Part shown: piece after piece, positions 15,904 through 23,318 of the stretch
Layout: each line of letters opens with the position of its first letter
Position numbering within the stretch: the first letter of the stretch is position 1
Made by a program: the position numbers and the translations under genes
Notes under the pieces: generated by a model
What the model saw: the letters and a program-made list of their open reading frames with translations, nothing else
Told to the model about the DNA's origin: nothing
The model's database searches: none
From: a virus
Strand: one strand, 5' to 3'
IMG/VR virus record: IMGVR_UViG_3300030107_001975
Location: 1 to 23,680 of that record
DNA length: 23,680 bases

Positions 15904-16449
15904 ATGCCAATAGGAATAAACGGATCAGGAACAATTACAGGAGTCTCTGTAGGTGGTCTACCCGACGGAATAGTAGATGAAGATATGTTAGCTGCAAATG
16001 CTGTAACAGCAGCTAAAGCTAATACTGCTGCATTTGGTAAAATACTCCAAGTAGTAACAGCCACTGACGATCAAAAAACAGTTAGTAGTAGCAGCTTTAC
16101 AGATATATATGACTCTGATTTATCAATAACATTAGCTTCTACATCTAATAAAGTGTTTGCATTAGGCGTCACTTCCTATGCTCATATGTCAAGAAGTAGT
16201 GGCGGAGATGTTCAAGCTGACTATAAGTTGGTAAGAAAAACATCTGGTGATACTAATGACAACTTACAAACGGGTAGGATGCGTCTTCAATCTGGAACTG
16301 ATTTAAATTGTAGTATGGTTGTATCTGCTTTGGATTCTTCGTTTAGTAATTTAGCTAATACTTACAATGTCCAATTAAAGTATGGCTCAGGAGATGAAGC
16401 TGCAAATGCTTATAACAATAGACTTTATTTATTTGAGGTAGCAGCATGA
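15904..16449 (+). CDS. Short tail-fibre-like protein (181 aa)
   Basis: The N-terminal ~50 residues are Gly/Ala-rich (GINGSGTITGVSVGGLPDG, DEDMLAANAVTAAKA), as in shaft segments of marine phage fibres. Then comes the hinge GKILQVV and a beta-rich C-terminal domain of ~125 residues (TDIYDSDLSITLASTSNKVF ... NRLYLFEVA). The same hinge introduces the C-terminal domain in the gene at 17386. No enzyme motif or signal peptide is visible. The start is two bases after the large-fibre stop, and the end overlaps the next gene as ATGA. It is probably a distal tip or adhesin piece, or an additional fibre; whether it assembles with the large fibre cannot be told from sequence. Confidence 0.7.
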   Translation: MPIGINGSGTITGVSVGGLPDGIVDEDMLAANAVTAAKANTAAFGKILQVVTATDDQKTVSSSSFTDIYDSDLSITLASTSNKVFALGVTSYAHMSRSSGGDVQADYKLVRKTSGDTNDNLQTGRMRLQSGTDLNCSMVVSALDSSFSNLANTYNVQLKYGSGDEAANAYNNRLYLFEVAA

Positions 16450-16748
16450 TAACTAAATTAAATGCTTTATACTCATTAACTCCTGGTGCAGAATGGGCTT
16501 GGGGTGGTATTGATTATCCCTATGCCAGATTGAATTGGTTAGATAGTAAGCAAACAAAACCCACTGAAGCTGAAATAGATGCTGAAGTAAAAAGGCTTCA
16601 AGGTATCTATGATAATAAAAAATATCAAAGAGATAGAGCAGCCGAATATCCTTCTGTGGTCGATCAGTTGGATGACATATACCATAACGGTATAGATGCT
16701 TGGAAAGCAACCATTAAAAAAACTAAAGATAAATATCCTAAACCATGA
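16446..16748 (+). CDS. YQRDRA-motif small protein, copy 1 (XkdW-like/tail-fibre accessory)
   Basis: This 100-residue protein has two parts. The N-terminal part holds YSLTPGAEWAWGG and NWLDSKQTKPTEAEIDAEV. The C-terminal part holds KYQRDRAAEYPSVVDQLDDI, WKATIKK and the end KYPKP. I recall this C-terminal part at the ends of many marine phage fibres or as separate small proteins, and it resembles XkdW-type tail proteins of Bacillus prophages. The helical, charged C-terminal half has paralogues in the genes at 17924 and 19128. It overlaps both neighbours as ATGA, tying its translation to fibre-like genes. A tail-fibre assembly or accessory role is inferred from context only. Confidence 0.7.
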   Translation: MITKLNALYSLTPGAEWAWGGIDYPYARLNWLDSKQTKPTEAEIDAEVKRLQGIYDNKKYQRDRAAEYPSVVDQLDDIYHNGIDAWKATIKKTKDKYPKP

Positions 16749-17386: not shown

Positions 17387-17934
17387 TGACAAAAGTATTA
17401 AATAACGCTATTAGAGGTTCGAGCGGAACAGCCGATAGTATTCAAATACATGCCTCTGATCAGTCGGTAACTTTTCCAGGTAATGTAACTTGCTCAGGAA
17501 CAGCTACTGGATTTGGTGGAGGTCAAATTCTTCAAGTAGTAGCAGAAGAAGAAGCTAATAGTATTACTAATCCAAGTGGTTACACTACATTCTTTGACTT
17601 AGCTATAACTCCTGTTTCTGCCAGTTCAAAATTCATAGTACATGTTAGTTCATTTTATATGTTAAATGATGGTAGAGAAATACTCATTAGATGTAGGGAT
17701 AGCTCTAGTACCTATGTAGGAGGTATAAGAGAATTTAAGAATGCTTCTGGTGGAGATATAAAAGGTTCGTTTAATACAACATGGTTTATGGATCAATCAT
17801 ATAGTACAGGAAGTGCAACTACTTTTATCGTCGAAGTTGATGATAATGGTAACACAACTAGTATTGGTTCAGGGACAAGTACTTGGAAGTCAACAATGGT
17901 TGTTTATGAAGTAGGGACTGTTAATGATGGATAG
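17386..17934 (+). CDS. Short tail-fibre-like protein (182 aa)
   Basis: I chose the ATG at 17386, which overlaps the previous stop by one base (TAATG), over an upstream in-frame ATG at 17344 that would overlap the C1q-like domain. The lead (TKVLNNAIRGSSGTADSIQI, VTFPGNVTCSGTATGFGGG) is followed by the hinge QILQVV and a beta-rich C-terminal domain of about 130 residues (TTFFDLAITPVSASSKFIVH ... KSTMVVYEVG). The layout equals that of the gene at 15904, so the two are probably paralogous fibres with different tips. The 3' end overlaps the next small gene by 11 bases. Confidence 0.7.
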   Translation: MTKVLNNAIRGSSGTADSIQIHASDQSVTFPGNVTCSGTATGFGGGQILQVVAEEEANSITNPSGYTTFFDLAITPVSASSKFIVHVSSFYMLNDGREILIRCRDSSSTYVGGIREFKNASGGDIKGSFNTTWFMDQSYSTGSATTFIVEVDDNGNTTSIGSGTSTWKSTMVVYEVGTVNDG

Positions 17935-18217
17935 TGAAGCAATTATTAAAGCCTACCCACAAGTGGTAGCAATTTATGAAAAGAAAGGTTGTTTCGACGC
18001 CTCTGGTAATCAAGTAACTATTGAAGATAGTAAGGTTACAGAAGCTAGAACAACCTTAGATGCTGAATATGCAGCAGCAAAATACCAAAGAGATAGAGCT
18101 GTAGCTTATGATCCAATTAAAGAACAATTAGATCAGCTCTACTGGGACAAAAAGAATGGTACTAACAAATGGGTCGAAGCCATTGACAAAGTAAAATCAG
18201 ACAATCCTAAACCATAA
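17924..18217 (+). CDS. YQRDRA-motif small protein, copy 2
   Basis: This 97-residue paralogue (two adjacent ATG codons at 17924 and 17927) reads SEAIIKAYPQVVAIYEKKG, then KYQRDRAVAYDPIKEQLDQL, YWDKKNGTNKW and the end VKSDNPKP. It is closely similar to the product at 19128 over the full length, but to that at 16446 only in the C-terminal half. The short AIIKAYP start resembles the start of XkdW-like tail proteins. It begins inside the end of one fibre-like gene and ends on the start of the next (TAATG at 18215-18219), so each fibre-YQRDRA pair looks like a unit. The function is not proven; an accessory or assembly role for the fibre before it is the likely reading. Confidence 0.7.
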   Translation: MMDSEAIIKAYPQVVAIYEKKGCFDASGNQVTIEDSKVTEARTTLDAEYAAAKYQRDRAVAYDPIKEQLDQLYWDKKNGTNKWVEAIDKVKSDNPKP

Positions 18218-19131
18218 TGGCATTAACACAAGTAAAAACTGCTGGTATAGCTAATGATGCTGTAACAGGAGCTAAGATCGCAGATGATCAAATAAATTCG
18301 GAACATTATGTAGACGGTTCTATAGATAATGCCCATGTTGCAGACGATCAGATAAATTCTGAGCACTATCATGCTGGAAGTATAGACCATGAACATTTAG
18401 CAACTGATATTATAGATGGGGATAATATAGCAGATAATGCTATTGATTCTGAGCACTACACAGATGGTTCTATAGATAATGAACATTTAGCTGACAACGC
18501 TGTTGATCTAGCTGAAATGGCTCATGGTACTCAAGGTGATGTACTTTATTATGGATCTGGTGGGGCTCCTACACGTTTAGGTGCTGGTACTAGTGGCCAG
18601 TTTTTGAAGACACAAGGTGGCAGTGCAAACCCAGTATGGGCAGCAGCAGGTGGAGGTAAAATTGTTGATGTAAAACAAACAGTTAGACATGCTGCAAGTT
18701 CATTTGACCTAACTTCACATACTTCTTCATCTGGTCAGATGTCAACAACTCATACAGTTGCTAATTCTGCTAATAAACTTTTAATAATAGCGTCTGTAAA
18801 TATTTCTGTTGGTATAGAGAGTAAAGTTTACATAGACCTTGCTGTAGATGATGCAATAACTACTTTTATTGGTGATGCTGCGGGTTCGGCAACTAGAGTT
18901 GGTGTTTCAGGATGGATTACAGGAAACACAGCTATGGAAAATTTAGTAGGTGTATGGTTATATACCCCTGGTGATGCTTCAAGTCATACCTATGCAGTTA
19001 AACTAGGACAAGGTAGTGGTGAAGCTAGTTCAAAATGGACTCATATCAATAGAGATGATACAAGTACAAATCATGTTGACTTTGAAAGAGCTGTATCAAC
19101 ATTAACTTTAATTGAGGTAGATGGAACATGA
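18217..19131 (+). CDS. Tail-fibre-like protein with SEHY-DGSID repeats (304 aa)
   Basis: The N-terminal ~100 residues consist of tandem ~21-residue repeats, IADDQINSEHYVDGSIDNAH and variants, then a GTSGQFLKTQGG connector typical of fibre shafts. After the hinge GGGKIVDV comes a C-terminal beta-rich domain of ~150 residues (FDLTSHTSSSGQMSTTHTV, KLLIIASVNIS, HTYAVKLGQGSGE, TLTLIEVDGT). The SEHY repeat also occurs in the large fibre near 13735-13770, so shaft modules are shared. The Asp/His-rich repeats could bind metal ions along the shaft. The end overlaps the third YQRDRA gene by four bases (ATGA). Confidence 0.75.
   Translation: MALTQVKTAGIANDAVTGAKIADDQINSEHYVDGSIDNAHVADDQINSEHYHAGSIDHEHLATDIIDGDNIADNAIDSEHYTDGSIDNEHLADNAVDLAEMAHGTQGDVLYYGSGGAPTRLGAGTSGQFLKTQGGSANPVWAAAGGGKIVDVKQTVRHAASSFDLTSHTSSSGQMSTTHTVANSANKLLIIASVNISVGIESKVYIDLAVDDAITTFIGDAAGSATRVGVSGWITGNTAMENLVGVWLYTPGDASSHTYAVKLGQGSGEASSKWTHINRDDTSTNHVDFERAVSTLTLIEVDGT
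18277..18519 (+). repeat. Tandem ~63-base repeats in fibre gene (SEHY-DGSIDN-H units)
   Basis: Three to four units encode IADDQINSEHYVDGSIDNAHV, ADDQINSEHYHAGSIDHEHL, IADNAIDSEHYTDGSIDNEHL and a decayed ADNAVDLAEM end. A short insertion (ATDIIDGDN) separates the second and third units. Such repeats favour length change by slippage or recombination. Confidence 0.8.
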
Positions 19132-19424
19132 TATTAGATTTTCACGCAATTATTAGAGCTTATCCTAATGCAACCATTGTTGATGAGGAAACAGGTGTTT
19201 TCGATAAGGATAACAACAAAATCAATTTAGATCAATCTAAAATTGATGAAGCTAGAGCTGCTATTGATAAAGAAGCCGATGATACTAAGTATCAAAGAGA
19301 TAGAGCAACTGCTTATCCTAGTTTGGCAGATCAATTAGATATGCAATATTGGGATCAAGTCAACGGAACTACTAAATGGAAAGAAGCTGTTGCAAAAGTA
19401 AAATCTGACAATCCGAAACCATGA
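19128..19424 (+). CDS. YQRDRA-motif small protein, copy 3
   Basis: This 98-residue protein is the close paralogue of the one at 17924: DFHAIIRAYPNATIVDEETG with a GVFDKDNNKI turn, then KYQRDRATAYPSLADQLDMQ, YWDQVNGTTKW and the end VKSDNPKP. It overlaps the fibre-like gene before it and the mini-gene after it, both as ATGA. The N-terminal part (AIIRAYPN, FD--N--I) resembles XkdW-like proteins. Three paralogues in 3 kb, each directly after a fibre-like gene, point to a fibre-linked accessory job. Confidence 0.72.
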   Translation: MILDFHAIIRAYPNATIVDEETGVFDKDNNKINLDQSKIDEARAAIDKEADDTKYQRDRATAYPSLADQLDMQYWDQVNGTTKWKEAVAKVKSDNPKP

Positions 19425-19510: not shown

Positions 19511-19905
19511 TGGAAATACCCTCCGCTAACCTACCCAAGGCTCTAGACATCCCTCAGATGTACCTGAGACAGCCTACAGCAGACGTTCCAGCCTTCCGCC
19601 CCATCGTTGTACCCCCAGCTGATTTAGAGCGCCCTGAGGAGACACAGGCGGAGGAGAAGGAAGAGAAAACAGAGACACCCGAACAACCCACCTTAAAGAT
19701 ACCGGTCATTGACATACAGATGCCCATACCGGAAACAGCGGTGGTAGTGACTGCTGTGACAACAGCTGTTATTGCAGTAACAACTACAACTGTTACTCAA
19801 TCCTTATTTGAACCTATTAAAAAGAAAGTTCAAAAGCAACTACAAGCTAAAGTCAATAAATGGAAGGAAAACCGGAAGAAAAAAAATCAATCCTCGGAAA
19901 GCTGA
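19510..19905 (+). CDS. Proline-rich protein with one membrane segment (cyanophage-type, unknown function)
   Basis: This 131-residue protein starts MEIPSANLPKALDIPQMYLR, a start I remember from marine cyanophage hypothetical proteins. Residues 1-75 are proline- and glutamate-rich. Residues ~77-98 (ETAVVVTAVTTAVIAVTTTT) form a membrane segment or a strongly hydrophobic Val/Thr/Ala stretch. Residues 100-131 are a basic, probably helical tail (KKKVQKQLQAKVNKWKENR). Base composition is strikingly GC-rich: 36 of 60 bases in 19561-19620, against 14 of 60 in 17101-17160. It overlaps the next gene by 46 bases in another frame. The role is unknown; its position before the holin-like gene suggests an envelope-related function or a virion-linked one. 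Confidence 0.72.
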   Translation: MEIPSANLPKALDIPQMYLRQPTADVPAFRPIVVPPADLERPEETQAEEKEEKTETPEQPTLKIPVIDIQMPIPETAVVVTAVTTAVIAVTTTTVTQSLFEPIKKKVQKQLQAKVNKWKENRKKKNQSSES

Positions 19906-20165
19906 AAGATGCTGCAGAGGATCAAGAACACCAAATCCAGATCCTTGGAACATTCGTCAGACTTGGCGTGGTTGTTTGGAGCGGATTCATAATAACAATG
20001 AATTACGTGGAAATACCTATGGTTAAGAAATCTGGTAACTCAGATATCACGTTCGTGGCAAGTGTGTTTACGGGCGCATTGGCCACTTTTGGCTTGACCA
20101 CTGGTAATTCTAAAGGTAAAGGACCTGTAAACTGCCCTATGGCAACTAAAAAGAAGGAAGAATGA
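19860..20165 (+). CDS. Holin-like small membrane protein (two predicted helices)
   Basis: This 101-residue protein has a charged N-terminus (EGKPEEKKSILGKLKDAAED), two likely membrane helices at about residues 28-47 (ILGTFVRLGVVVWSGFIITM) and 62-82 (DITFVASVFTGALATFGLTT), and a basic C-terminal tail. This layout suits a class II holin, and the place between the fibres and the small terminase is that of T7 gene 17.5. I know no motif that proves holin function; a similar gene of unknown role occurs in marine cyanophages. No endolysin gene is in the window. The start lies inside the previous gene, and its stop overlaps the next start (ATGA at 20162-20165). Confidence 0.6.
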   Translation: MEGKPEEKKSILGKLKDAAEDQEHQIQILGTFVRLGVVVWSGFIITMNYVEIPMVKKSGNSDITFVASVFTGALATFGLTTGNSKGKGPVNCPMATKKKEE

Positions 20166-20533
20166 AGAAATGGCTTTTCCTCTTCCTACTGTTATCCCCC
20201 TCGGTAGCAAGAGCAGAGTTAGTCACCCCACAATTCACACAGGGGTCGATGAACTCGACAACAACAACGACTCAAGAGATCGTGGAGGATATAACCATCA
20301 CGACTTATGGGTCCGCATTAAACAAATGGTCTGGGGACAACATAACCCATACCTCAACAACGTCAGGCGGGATAGCGGATTCCGATTCGGTATTCAACAT
20401 GACAACAGCTGGAAGCGACTTTACACTAGAAATAGTAACAAGAGCAGCCAGTCAGGTACTGGAAGTAACAGAAATCGAAAGAGAAATCGATACCTCCTCT
20501 ACTACGGTATCATTATCAGTATTCTCGCAATAG
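20162..20533 (+). CDS. Exported protein with signal peptide (123 aa), Thr/Ser-rich
   Basis: The N-terminus is a clear Sec signal: MKKWLFLFLLLSPSVARAEL, with positive start, hydrophobic core and cleavage expected after ARA at residue 18. The mature part is Thr/Ser-rich and beta-like (LVTPQFTQGSMNSTTTTTQE, DITITTYGS, LEIVTRAASQVLEV) and ends SLSVFSQ. I recall the LVTPQFTQGSM start in marine cyanophages as an uncharacterised protein. There is no lipobox cysteine, so it is not an Rz1-like lipoprotein. AAGGAAG at 20154-20160 lies close to this ATG. The whole gene is overlapped by an open frame that continues into the next exported protein, which makes the region unusual. Confidence 0.78.
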   Translation: MKKWLFLFLLLSPSVARAELVTPQFTQGSMNSTTTTTQEIVEDITITTYGSALNKWSGDNITHTSTTSGGIADSDSVFNMTTAGSDFTLEIVTRAASQVLEVTEIEREIDTSSTTVSLSVFSQ

Positions 20534-21081
20534 GAACCCCAAGTTATGCTGAAGAGGGAGAAACCAACAATACTTCAAACCCTGTGGCAGCGGCTACAGG
20601 AAACGTTACAAATCAAGCCGTCCAATTTCAGAACAATGGAGCCCCAAGTCGTCAGATTATCGGGCCGAATATAAGCTGTAATGGCGCAACGATGACGTTC
20701 AGCCCATTTTATATGGGCAATCATACCACTCCTTATGATGACACTATGACTCAACAGAGTTATACTGTTGCTGAGAACTGGGGTGGGCAATTGAATTTCA
20801 TGGTACCCCTTGATGGCTCTCTTGTGGAACGCTGTAAAGAAGCAGCTTCTAGACAGATAGCTAAGATGAAACTTGACTATGAACTAGTCAGAGTTAAAAA
20901 TTGTGCAGAATTACAGCAGAAAGGGTTTATGATACGTCCTAACACACGTGTATATCATATGTGTTCAGATGTTATACCTATTTCTGCATTTAAAAAACAA
21001 GTAGCAGCAGCGCAAGCCAAGCTACTACCCCCACCACCACCTAAAAAGTGGTATCAAAAACTCAACCCCCTAAACAAATGA
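20326..21081 (+). CDS. Second exported protein; start codon uncertain
   Basis: The frame is open from 20131 to the TGA at 21079-21081. A typical signal peptide is encoded at about 20470-20550: RKRNR, then YLLYYGIIISILAIG, with cleavage after SYA. The mature part (NPVAAATGNVTNQAVQFQNN, ISCNGATMTFSPFYMGNHT, ENWGGQLNFMVPLDGS, MKLDYELVRVKNCAEL, TRVYHMCSDV) has four cysteines suited to disulphides and a proline-rich, basic end (LLPPPPPKKW). I recall relatives in marine cyanophages. No ATG, GTG or TTG stands just before the signal peptide. The listed start is the nearest upstream ATG, which adds ~50 residues; ATG 20170 is also in frame, and GTG 20584 would remove the signal. Start confidence is low, gene confidence high. 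Confidence 0.72.
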   Translation: MVWGQHNPYLNNVRRDSGFRFGIQHDNSWKRLYTRNSNKSSQSGTGSNRNRKRNRYLLYYGIIISILAIGTPSYAEEGETNNTSNPVAAATGNVTNQAVQFQNNGAPSRQIIGPNISCNGATMTFSPFYMGNHTTPYDDTMTQQSYTVAENWGGQLNFMVPLDGSLVERCKEAASRQIAKMKLDYELVRVKNCAELQQKGFMIRPNTRVYHMCSDVIPISAFKKQVAAAQAKLLPPPPPKKWYQKLNPLNK

Positions 21082-21233: not shown

Positions 21234-21476
21234 ATGGCTAAAGCCACAGAACAACAGTTCAATGAGTTACATAACCTCGTCACTTCTGAATTTCTTAAAA
21301 GAGTTAAGAGTGGTGAGGCTAGTACTCAGGACTTAAAAGCAGCCTGTGATTGGCTGAAAATAAACGATATAAGTGGTGTCGCATATGACGGTAACCCCTT
21401 AGATAAGTTAAACCGTATTATGCCAAAAGTTGACCCTGAACTCGTCAATCGGAGGTTATATGGCAAAACCAGGTAG
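21234..21476 (+). CDS. terS: Small terminase subunit, T7 gp18-like
   Basis: This 80-residue protein is in the size range of T7 gp18 (89 residues). It begins with a helical part (TEQQFNELHNLVTSEFLKRV), then SGEASTQDLKAACDWLKIND, which looks like a helix-turn-helix-type DNA-recognition layout seen in small terminases, and an end of DKLNRIMPKVDPELVNRRLY. In T7 the small subunit binds concatemer DNA and directs the large subunit. Position after the holin-like and exported genes, and upstream of the large subunit, supports the call. Unlike T7, three genes separate it from the large subunit. The product's end overlaps the next gene by 17 bases. Confidence 0.68.
   Translation: MAKATEQQFNELHNLVTSEFLKRVKSGEASTQDLKAACDWLKINDISGVAYDGNPLDKLNRIMPKVDPELVNRRLYGKTR
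21451..21456 (+). promoter_or_regulatory. Ribosome binding site (GGAGGT) for gene at 21460
   Basis: GGAGGT at 21451-21456, inside the small terminase gene, stands four to five bases before the ATG at 21460. It favours that start over an upstream in-frame ATG at 21430. Strong Shine-Dalgarno sequences are rare in this window. Confidence 0.65.
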
Positions 21477-21735
21477 ATACGCAAACGGTGGAAAGAAAAC
21501 CACCGCTAAAAGATGGATGCAAACGGAGAAAGCTAAAAAAATCAGAAGGAATGCTGATAAGTTAAGAAGTTCTTTAAAACGTAAAGGTATTAAAAAACCT
21601 CCTGGTACAGAAGCAGGTCATAATGCTAAAGGCTCTGGTAAACATGGTTGGGAAAAAGTATCTAAAAACCGAGCTGTTGAAACTAAAAATAAAAATAGAA
21701 GTAAGCTTCAATCCAAGAAAAGGAGGAAGGATTGA
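21460..21735 (+). CDS. Small, very basic protein (91 aa), possibly nucleic-acid binding
   Basis: The product begins MAKPGRYANGGKKTTAKRWM and is rich in Lys and Arg throughout, with almost no hydrophobic core. A part near residues 48-80 (GTEAGHNAKGSGKHGW, KNRAVETKNKNRSK) faintly resembles the His-Asn-Arg end of HNH nucleases (the H...GG...N+...NRS pattern), but the usual metal-binding residues are not convincing. The charge suggests DNA or RNA binding. It lies between the small terminase and the AHH-type nuclease, and its stop overlaps the nuclease start (TGATG). A packaging-linked or DNA-condensing role is inference only. Confidence 0.65.
   Translation: MAKPGRYANGGKKTTAKRWMQTEKAKKIRRNADKLRSSLKRKGIKKPPGTEAGHNAKGSGKHGWEKVSKNRAVETKNKNRSKLQSKKRRKD
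21721..21726 (+). promoter_or_regulatory. Ribosome binding site (AGGAGG) for nuclease-like gene
   Basis: AGGAGG at 21721-21726 lies eight bases before the ATG at 21735 and supports that start over a TTG at 21732. It is the best Shine-Dalgarno in the window. Confidence 0.7.
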
Positions 21736-23318
21736 TGGGATCACGTGGGCAACAACAAACTTGGACAATAGATAAAAGTGATTTATTAAACTCTTTAGGA
21801 CCAGAAGATCTTTCTGAAATCAGTGCAAGTAGAAATCCAAAATTAGTCCAATCTTATAAGTTACGTAGATTAAAAATTGCAGAATTGGAAGGTCGGATAA
21901 AAACATTATTAGATCGAACTGAAATAACACCTAAATTAAGAAAGACAATTACTGATTTATCTCGAGAATTAAAATCAGTTGTTTTAACAGATCCTACTGA
22001 AGCTTTTAAATTTGATCCTAATAGTAAAAAAGGTGTAAAATTAGGAGATACTAAATATACTGGTTGGAAATATACTATACCTGATTGGTATACTGCAAAG
22101 GATCCTTTTCAAGCTCATCATAAAGCTGGATTAGATAAATATTTTCGTGGTGTTTTAGGTAAATCAGATGCAGATTTATTTTTTATGCATCAAGATTTAG
22201 CTAAAGAAGGTGTTTATCTAGCTAATCATCCTAAAAATAGATTAAATATTCATAGAAGTTTACATCAAGGTAGTACAAGAAGAGGAGGTGCAGTAAGACA
22301 ATCAGTTCATGGAGTATTAGATTGGAGTGAACTTGATTCAGATGATTTCAATGCACTTATGAATGAAGTTGATCCTAGAGATTGGCGCACAAATTTTGAT
22401 ATAGATACTGGTATAGGATCTAAAGCTTCTACATATAAAGGATTAAAACGAGTACCTACTCCTGAAGTTACGGAAATTGGTTATTCAACAGATCAGATTT
22501 TAAATTTAGCTAAAAATGATTATACTATAGCAGATAGAGTTTCTCAAGTAATTCCAGAAGAACTTCCTTTATGGGATAGAAATATTTCTAAACAAGGTGG
22601 TTTAAAAGCATTTGTTGAAAAATATCCTAATCCATTAGAATGGCCTGAAGGTACTAGAGAAATTTTAAAATCAGGGGATGTTAAAGCACTAAGCCAGTTA
22701 AGTGATAAAATTGAAGCAAGAAAGAATGTAGAAACTCAAAGAAAATTCCTTGAAGTATTCGGAGAAAATTCAGTTACTAGAAAAAAACTTGCTGAAGCTG
22801 CAGAAGCTTATCAGAAACTACCTACTCCATTAAAATTCGGTTCAGGTTTACTTCTAGCTGATTTAGCTTTTTCTACTTTAGATATTCATGCAGGTGGCGT
22901 TCAAGCAGAACAAGAGAAAGGAGATACATTAGAATCTAAATATAGACAGGCTGCTGGTAGATTAAGACAAACAAGCGGAGCATTAGGTTTAGGAGGTGCA
23001 GGTACATCTATAATGACAAATGCACTTAAAGGTCAGGCAATTAAACAAGGCATACCATTACAACCAAAAGGTTTATCTACAAAAATACCAACTACTGGAC
23101 AGTTAATAAAAGGCGGTAATTTGCTATCAAGCGTTGCTGGACTTAGTAGCGTATTTACTGGACTTACAGCTTGGCGAGCAGAACACTTAGCTGATCAAGA
23201 GGCTAGAAGAACAAGAGATCAGAAAATACTAACAGGTGAGATTCAAACATTTACTCCAGATGATTTAGAAATTAAAAAGACTGAACCTCGTATCCCAAAT
23301 TTACCTTATTTAAAATGA
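21735..23318 (+). CDS. Predicted AHH/HNH-type nuclease fused to long C-terminal region (527 aa)
   Basis: Residues ~120-200 carry the pattern of the AHH branch of HNH/endonuclease VII-fold nucleases: FQAHHKAGLDKYF (A127, H128, H129), then DLAKEGVYLANHPKNRLNIH with N168 and H173, HQG (H177), and H192 before GVLDW. In this family the double His and the later N/H residues bind metal and cut DNA. The N-terminal part is helical and charged. The C-terminal part (~360-490) has Gly/Ala/Leu-rich stretches (FGSGLLLADLAFS, GALGLGGAGTSIM, LLSSVAGLSSVFTGLTAW) that could touch membranes or pack in the virion. The gene lies between the small and large terminase genes. The family is known widely in polymorphic toxins; a packaging or virion role here is inferred. 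Base use is very AT-rich, unlike the 19510-20540 region. Confidence 0.65.
   Translation: MGSRGQQQTWTIDKSDLLNSLGPEDLSEISASRNPKLVQSYKLRRLKIAELEGRIKTLLDRTEITPKLRKTITDLSRELKSVVLTDPTEAFKFDPNSKKGVKLGDTKYTGWKYTIPDWYTAKDPFQAHHKAGLDKYFRGVLGKSDADLFFMHQDLAKEGVYLANHPKNRLNIHRSLHQGSTRRGGAVRQSVHGVLDWSELDSDDFNALMNEVDPRDWRTNFDIDTGIGSKASTYKGLKRVPTPEVTEIGYSTDQILNLAKNDYTIADRVSQVIPEELPLWDRNISKQGGLKAFVEKYPNPLEWPEGTREILKSGDVKALSQLSDKIEARKNVETQRKFLEVFGENSVTRKKLAEAAEAYQKLPTPLKFGSGLLLADLAFSTLDIHAGGVQAEQEKGDTLESKYRQAAGRLRQTSGALGLGGAGTSIMTNALKGQAIKQGIPLQPKGLSTKIPTTGQLIKGGNLLSSVAGLSSVFTGLTAWRAEHLADQEARRTRDQKILTGEIQTFTPDDLEIKKTEPRIPNLPYLK

Follow-up and report, generated by a model that had tools for sequence, protein, structure and literature searches.

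A predicted exported cyanophage protein probably starts inside a second exported-protein gene, at sites confined to tryptophan codons

The window analysed here, a virus record of 23,680 bases, is part of a T7-like cyanophage and carries two genes, A and B, whose predicted exported proteins are encoded in overlapping frames. We consider it probable, at about 0.77, that B is read from the ATG at 20170, inside A, as a protein with a basic leader of about 100 residues ahead of its signal peptide, and that the ATG at 20326 serves as a second start; initiation at these sites is deduced from the sequence. Structural genes and tail fibres come first in the gene order, followed by the block that holds A and B, which lies ahead of the terminase small subunit at 21234 (PF11123). 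Both T7-like and T4-like cyanophages have A and B as conserved neighbours. The features used below are as follows.

19860 to 20165, plus strand: gene U, DUF6450 (PF20048, 111.7 bits), two hydrophobic stretches, holin-like by position only
20154 to 20160, plus strand: AAGGAAG, the only Shine-Dalgarno-like stretch
20162 to 20533, plus strand: gene A, Ser/Thr-rich, predicted to be exported, phrog_650 / DUF6322-like
20170 to 21081, plus strand: gene B in its long form, 303 aa, in the -1 frame of A, phrog_848/phrog_1755, 'gp165'
20170 to 20172, plus strand: likeliest B start, an ATG made of the last base of Lys3 and Trp4 of A
20170 to 20325, plus strand: overlap region 1, stop-free in 162 of 170 and otherwise almost unconstrained in B
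20326 to 20328, plus strand: second possible B start, an ATG over Lys55-Trp56 of A
20326 to 20533, plus strand: overlap region 2, stop-free in all 170-173
20470 to 20550, plus strand: B signal peptide with basic n-region, h-region and a site between SYA and EEG; reduced synonymous divergence
20551 to 21078, plus strand: B mature domain, about 176 aa, four invariant Cys

A extends from ATG 20162 to TAG 20533 and encodes 123 aa beginning with the signal peptide MKKWLFLFLLLSPSVARA, followed by E. In profile searches A matched phrog_650 (E 1.4e-30), and B matched phrog_848 and phrog_1755 (E 1.5e-57 and 6.2e-53); with DUF6322 (PF19847), the A homologue of S-H38 scored above the cut-off (58.5 bits) and the A of the window below it. 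The signal peptide of B is RNRKRNRYLLYYGIIISILAIGTPSYA, followed by EEG, with its last base at 20550, and its hydrophobic core overlies the conserved C-terminus of A (TVSLSVFSQ). The cleavage motifs of A (ARA before E) and B (SYA before E) are AxA-like as read by eye. The first-pass annotation had reported that A, with its signal peptide, is wholly covered by a second open frame at 20131-21081, and these coordinates are correct, the frame-1 ORF being open throughout and spanning all of A. Its observation that the B frame has no ATG, GTG or TTG between 20329 and 20550 also holds, and upstream of this interval only ATG 20170 and ATG 20326 are present.

The positions at which B can start are set by the protein sequence of A. 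In the -1 frame each B codon begins with the third base of an A codon, so an NTG codon in B needs an A codon starting with TG, and ATG, GTG or TTG can occur in B only over Trp or Cys of A. Cys is absent from the A of the window and Trp occurs twice (W4 and W56), which leaves exactly two possible starts, ATG 20170 and ATG 20326. An ATG is found at the 20170 position in all clade members in which region 1 is open (one codon later in three), and the 20326 position carries ATG or GTG in nearly all clade members, being the sole start left in the eight 'closed' ones. The general consequence is that start sites in a -1 overlap, being tied to Trp or Cys residues of the other protein, can shift only from one such residue to another.

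In nearly all relatives compared, the signal-peptide core of B lies over the conserved end of A (SLSVFSQ), and B must therefore start inside A. The start is over a Trp near the A end, 64-67 nt ahead of the A stop, in P-SSP2/P-SSP3 and S-H38; at a Trp 112 nt ahead of it in P-SSP7, P-GSP1, SS120-1, P-RSP2 and S28-C3; and at the equivalent of Trp56, 193 nt ahead of it, in S-RIP1, S-RIP2, S-TIP37, S-SBP1 and S45-C4. Upstream of each start, these outgroups have B-frame stops. The exception is P-SCSP1d, a MED4 cyanopodovirus, in which B adjoins A in a different frame (+1 offset) and has an ordinary ATG just ahead of its signal peptide, 56 nt before the end of A. Each phage clade would appear to start B at whichever Trp its A has; in the clade of the window, in which the Trp codons nearer the signal are missing, B would start mainly at ATG 20170, 8 nt into A.

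Three other explanations offered in the first-pass annotation fare poorly against these comparisons. The absence of AUG, GUG and UUG within 140 nt upstream of the signal-peptide region would fit a non-AUG start near the signal peptide, which is nevertheless very improbable: no ATT, ATC, ATA or CTG is conserved at 20395-20512, the conserved ATC at 20515 falls within the hydrophobic core, and stop avoidance reaches far upstream of the signal. Ribosomal frameshifting from A into an A-B fusion would also account for the layout, given that the -1 frame, which B occupies, is open all along A. No slippery heptamer is conserved in A, however, and the fused product would contain two signal peptides. 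Moreover, B has its own start inside A in relatives, P-SSP2/3 and S-H38 having an ordinary B ATG there and B-frame stops upstream of it; we give frameshifting equally little credence. A sequence error or assembly artefact, conceivable for a single metagenomic contig, can be dismissed, as the same arrangement is present in six cultured isolates and about 160 other contigs.

The strongest evidence for translation of the B frame comes from stop codons across the clade. Viral contigs and phage records yielded 190 distinct A genes. About 173 belong to the clade of the window, and 83 representatives less than 90% identical were taken; the sequences are linked by descent, and counts are not independent events. 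Among the 83 representatives, synonymous-codon shuffling of A predicts 219 +/- 12 B-frame stops in region 2 and 77 +/- 7.5 in region 1, and the observed numbers are 0 and 12. Region 1 is open in 77 of the 83, against an expectation of 36%. For the window genome alone, the probability of an open frame after shuffling its own synonymous codons is 0.65 for 20170-20326 and 0.08 for 20326-20533; under genome codon usage it is 0.01 for the former, and 0 of 500 draws left the latter open.

A stop arises in B where a T-ending A codon precedes AA, AG or GA. In the open lineages (n=162), stop-making T is found at 0 of 844 such positions in region 1 and 0 of 1795 in region 2. As this set is defined by the lack of stops, the weight of the argument falls on the total count and on the closed lineages, in which the constraint is relaxed. 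In other contexts of the open lineages T makes up 21.5% (region 1) and 35.7% (region 2), and fourfold codons of neighbouring control genes have T in 36-48% of the same contexts. A same-column control is provided by Pro23, encoded by CCT in 27 of the 62 sequences with CA next and in none of the 97 with AA next. The earliest avoided stops, at A codons 16 and 18, put the B start no later than codon 15 of A, and ATG 20170 is the only possible start in that stretch. Both frames are thus conserved and stop-free beyond chance in homologues, the pattern by which overlapping genes are recognized. Stop avoidance in about 170 homologues makes a long extension with real dual coding from 20170 or 20326, also among the options first listed, the best supported of them.

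Synonymous divergence is a less sensitive guide. At fourfold sites it is 0.49 in region 1 and 0.50 in the upstream gene, and a clear drop, to 0.33, is confined to the signal-peptide part; this measure alone is too blunt, and the stop-context test is the informative one. Codons 4-15 of A and the stretch over the B signal peptide show reduced synonymous divergence, and codons 16-75 do not. Variation is also low at the first codons of U, and the 5' effect in A may be generic. A lack of second-frame constraint upstream of 20470 had been named as a result that would speak against dual coding; constraint was found there, mainly on openness and not on amino-acid sequence.

Long B opens with a hydrophilic stretch of some 101 residues, the last 50 of which have a mean net charge of +8. 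Mean entropy reaches 1.4 bits in the leader, whereas mature B has 0.35-0.8 and A about 0.5, and constraint in B rises only over the basic n-region and signal peptide. Given this poor conservation and the lack of synonymous reduction in A codons 16-75, we read the leader as passive, a segment that would have to be translated but whose sequence matters little. A signal peptide behind about 100 residues is unusual, which counts against the long form. An extended signal peptide of the autotransporter type was considered, and no conserved extension motif was found ahead of the n-region of this poorly conserved leader.

Lineages that have lost the open leader offer a natural control. Eight sequences have stops in region 1, arising in at least 5 independent events on the tree, and ATG 20326 is kept in all eight. 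In these closed lineages stop-making T occupies 16 of 48 positions in region 1 (33%), similar to the 30% found elsewhere, and 0 of 107 in region 2. Within each region, constraint is therefore either complete or absent. Read most simply, B is translated from ATG 20170 in the majority of lineages, and a few have fallen back on ATG 20326. Open and closed lineages together amount to a natural experiment on dual coding, in which stops are avoided absolutely as long as the leader is in use and codon choice becomes neutral once it is lost. Two close relatives of the window phage (L002 and L127) are among those that lost region 1; together with the openness probability of 0.65 for region 1 in the window alone, this leaves initiation at 20170 less certain for the window phage itself than for its clade. 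Conservation of Trp4 and the preceding AAA was dropped as proof of start use, as closed lineages retain both.

The same data bear on the possibility that B starts only at ATG 20326, with a leader of about 50 residues, and that the frame upstream of it is open as a by-product of A. An ATG or GTG at that site in nearly all clade members is in keeping with this, as is the fact that region 2 never contains a stop; the eight closed lineages and the S-RIP/S-TIP37 group must use a 20326-type site. Yet stop-making T is avoided just as absolutely in region 1, and the avoidance is gone only in closed lineages. In addition, one sequence (L024) has no start at the 20326 position and is nevertheless open upstream, and the ribosome-binding signal is weaker ahead of 20326 than ahead of A. 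Exclusive use of 20326 is accordingly considered unlikely.

If B starts at 20170, initiation may be tied to the gene upstream. The TGA of U overlaps the ATG of A as ATGA, a junction present in 151 of 170 clade members, and three reading frames converge within about 10 nt at the U/A/B junction, a feature absent from the first-pass annotation. The latter had placed AAGGAAG 9 nt before ATG 20170, against 1 nt before ATG 20162, and argued from spacing for the former; the position is right, and the spacing argument is plausible and not decisive. Across the clade, the best pairing of the Shine-Dalgarno-like stretch typically ends 2 nt before the A ATG, which is close for A, and 10 nt before the B ATG. 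A B start 8 nt into A would probably share the ribosome-binding region of A. Because the U stop overlaps the A start, ribosomes that have just finished U could initiate at either ATG, that of A or that of B, and such re-use would couple U, A and B. ATG 20326 may act in parallel and take over once the leader is lost. More tentatively, and at somewhat less than even odds in our estimate, one ribosome-binding region fed from U would start two exported proteins 8 nt apart, fixing their ratio, with the leader selected only for openness. Dual-start lysis genes of the phage lambda S holin type likewise have two nearby starts on one ribosome-binding region; the starts of A and B differ in lying in different frames and yielding different proteins.

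U, A and B all appear from their sequences to be targeted to the envelope, and they presumably sit where T7 has its holin. Signals and position together hint at an envelope or lysis role for the U-A-B module. P-SSP7 and many marine cyanophages are listed as spanin-less in a survey of spanins (PMC6139136), and it is conceivable, if rather unlikely, that U-A-B supplies their missing outer-membrane lysis function. The embedded and overlapped Rz/Rz1 spanins resemble A and B in being two envelope-targeted phage proteins in overlapping frames, in a late gene block, with starts prone to mis-annotation (PMC6139136). In contrast to Rz/Rz1, A and B lack a lipobox Cys, A having no Cys at all, and both have cleavable-type signal peptides. 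A two-component spanin by the usual definition was rejected for A/B, since the o-spanin lipobox Cys is missing (the B signal ends in SYA before EE). With regard to an i-spanin anchor, B has one N-terminal hydrophobic segment, but this carries a strong cleavage-type motif as judged by eye. As in viral overprinted genes (reviewed in PMC8227390), the ancestral frame (A) is protein-constrained and a second frame is kept open over it. In contrast to overprinted genes generally, overprinting here is confined to the leader of an older gene (B), an extension that is open and nearly free in sequence.

Structure prediction gave weak AlphaFold models (pLDDT 58.6 for A and 68.7 for B), too weak for naming a fold. 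In the mature domain of B, modelled with moderate confidence, the N-terminal half is strand-rich and followed by a long helix. A PDB fold search with the models gave no match below E 0.3, and a PDB sequence search gave no match. Five matches with E < 0.001 in a viral structure library look like cyanophage relatives, two of them being named homologues. No convincing cellular homologue was found among six genome-contig matches, which comprise two marine cyanobacterial single-cell assemblies and four marine MAG contigs and are read as phage DNA. Contigs L263, L264, L265 and L266, filed as Flavobacteriaceae, Neomarinimicrobiota and Crocinitomicaceae MAGs, encode B relatives and are most simply explained as wrongly binned cyanophage DNA.

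The 'gp165' genes of NATL1A-7, 9515-10a, P-SSP6, P-SSP10 and NATL2A-133, as well as PSSP7_044/045 of P-SSP7, are the same homologous genes in the same place before the terminase small subunit. Their deposited B starts are mutually incompatible. The records of NATL1A-7, 9515-10a and P-SSP6 (L081, L084, L100) have a 20170-type B start and leave A unannotated, that of P-SSP10 has a 20326-type start, and those of NATL2A-133 and P-SSP7 annotate A and place the B start after the signal peptide. For a conserved gene pair of abundant ocean viruses, the present analysis amends current records, which either miss A or cut off the signal peptide of B. Among the papers searched, none describing the A/B overlap was found.

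Several further observations were made in the window and its relatives. In cyanomyoviruses (L093:1624-2130, L267:1181-1627), a further secreted protein is encoded directly upstream of the A-B pair and ends in ELSVFK, like the SLSVFSQ of A; it is possibly a paralogue of A. No RNA families were found in the window. Downstream of the terminase small subunit, a 528-aa ORF (21732-23318) is without a match in Pfam, PHROGs and NCBIfam. Three similar genes of about 100 aa (16446-16748, 17924-18217 and 19128-19424), which end in DNPKP or KYPKP and have KYQRDRA in common, alternate with tail-fibre-like genes, as if a cassette of a fibre plus a small gene had been duplicated.
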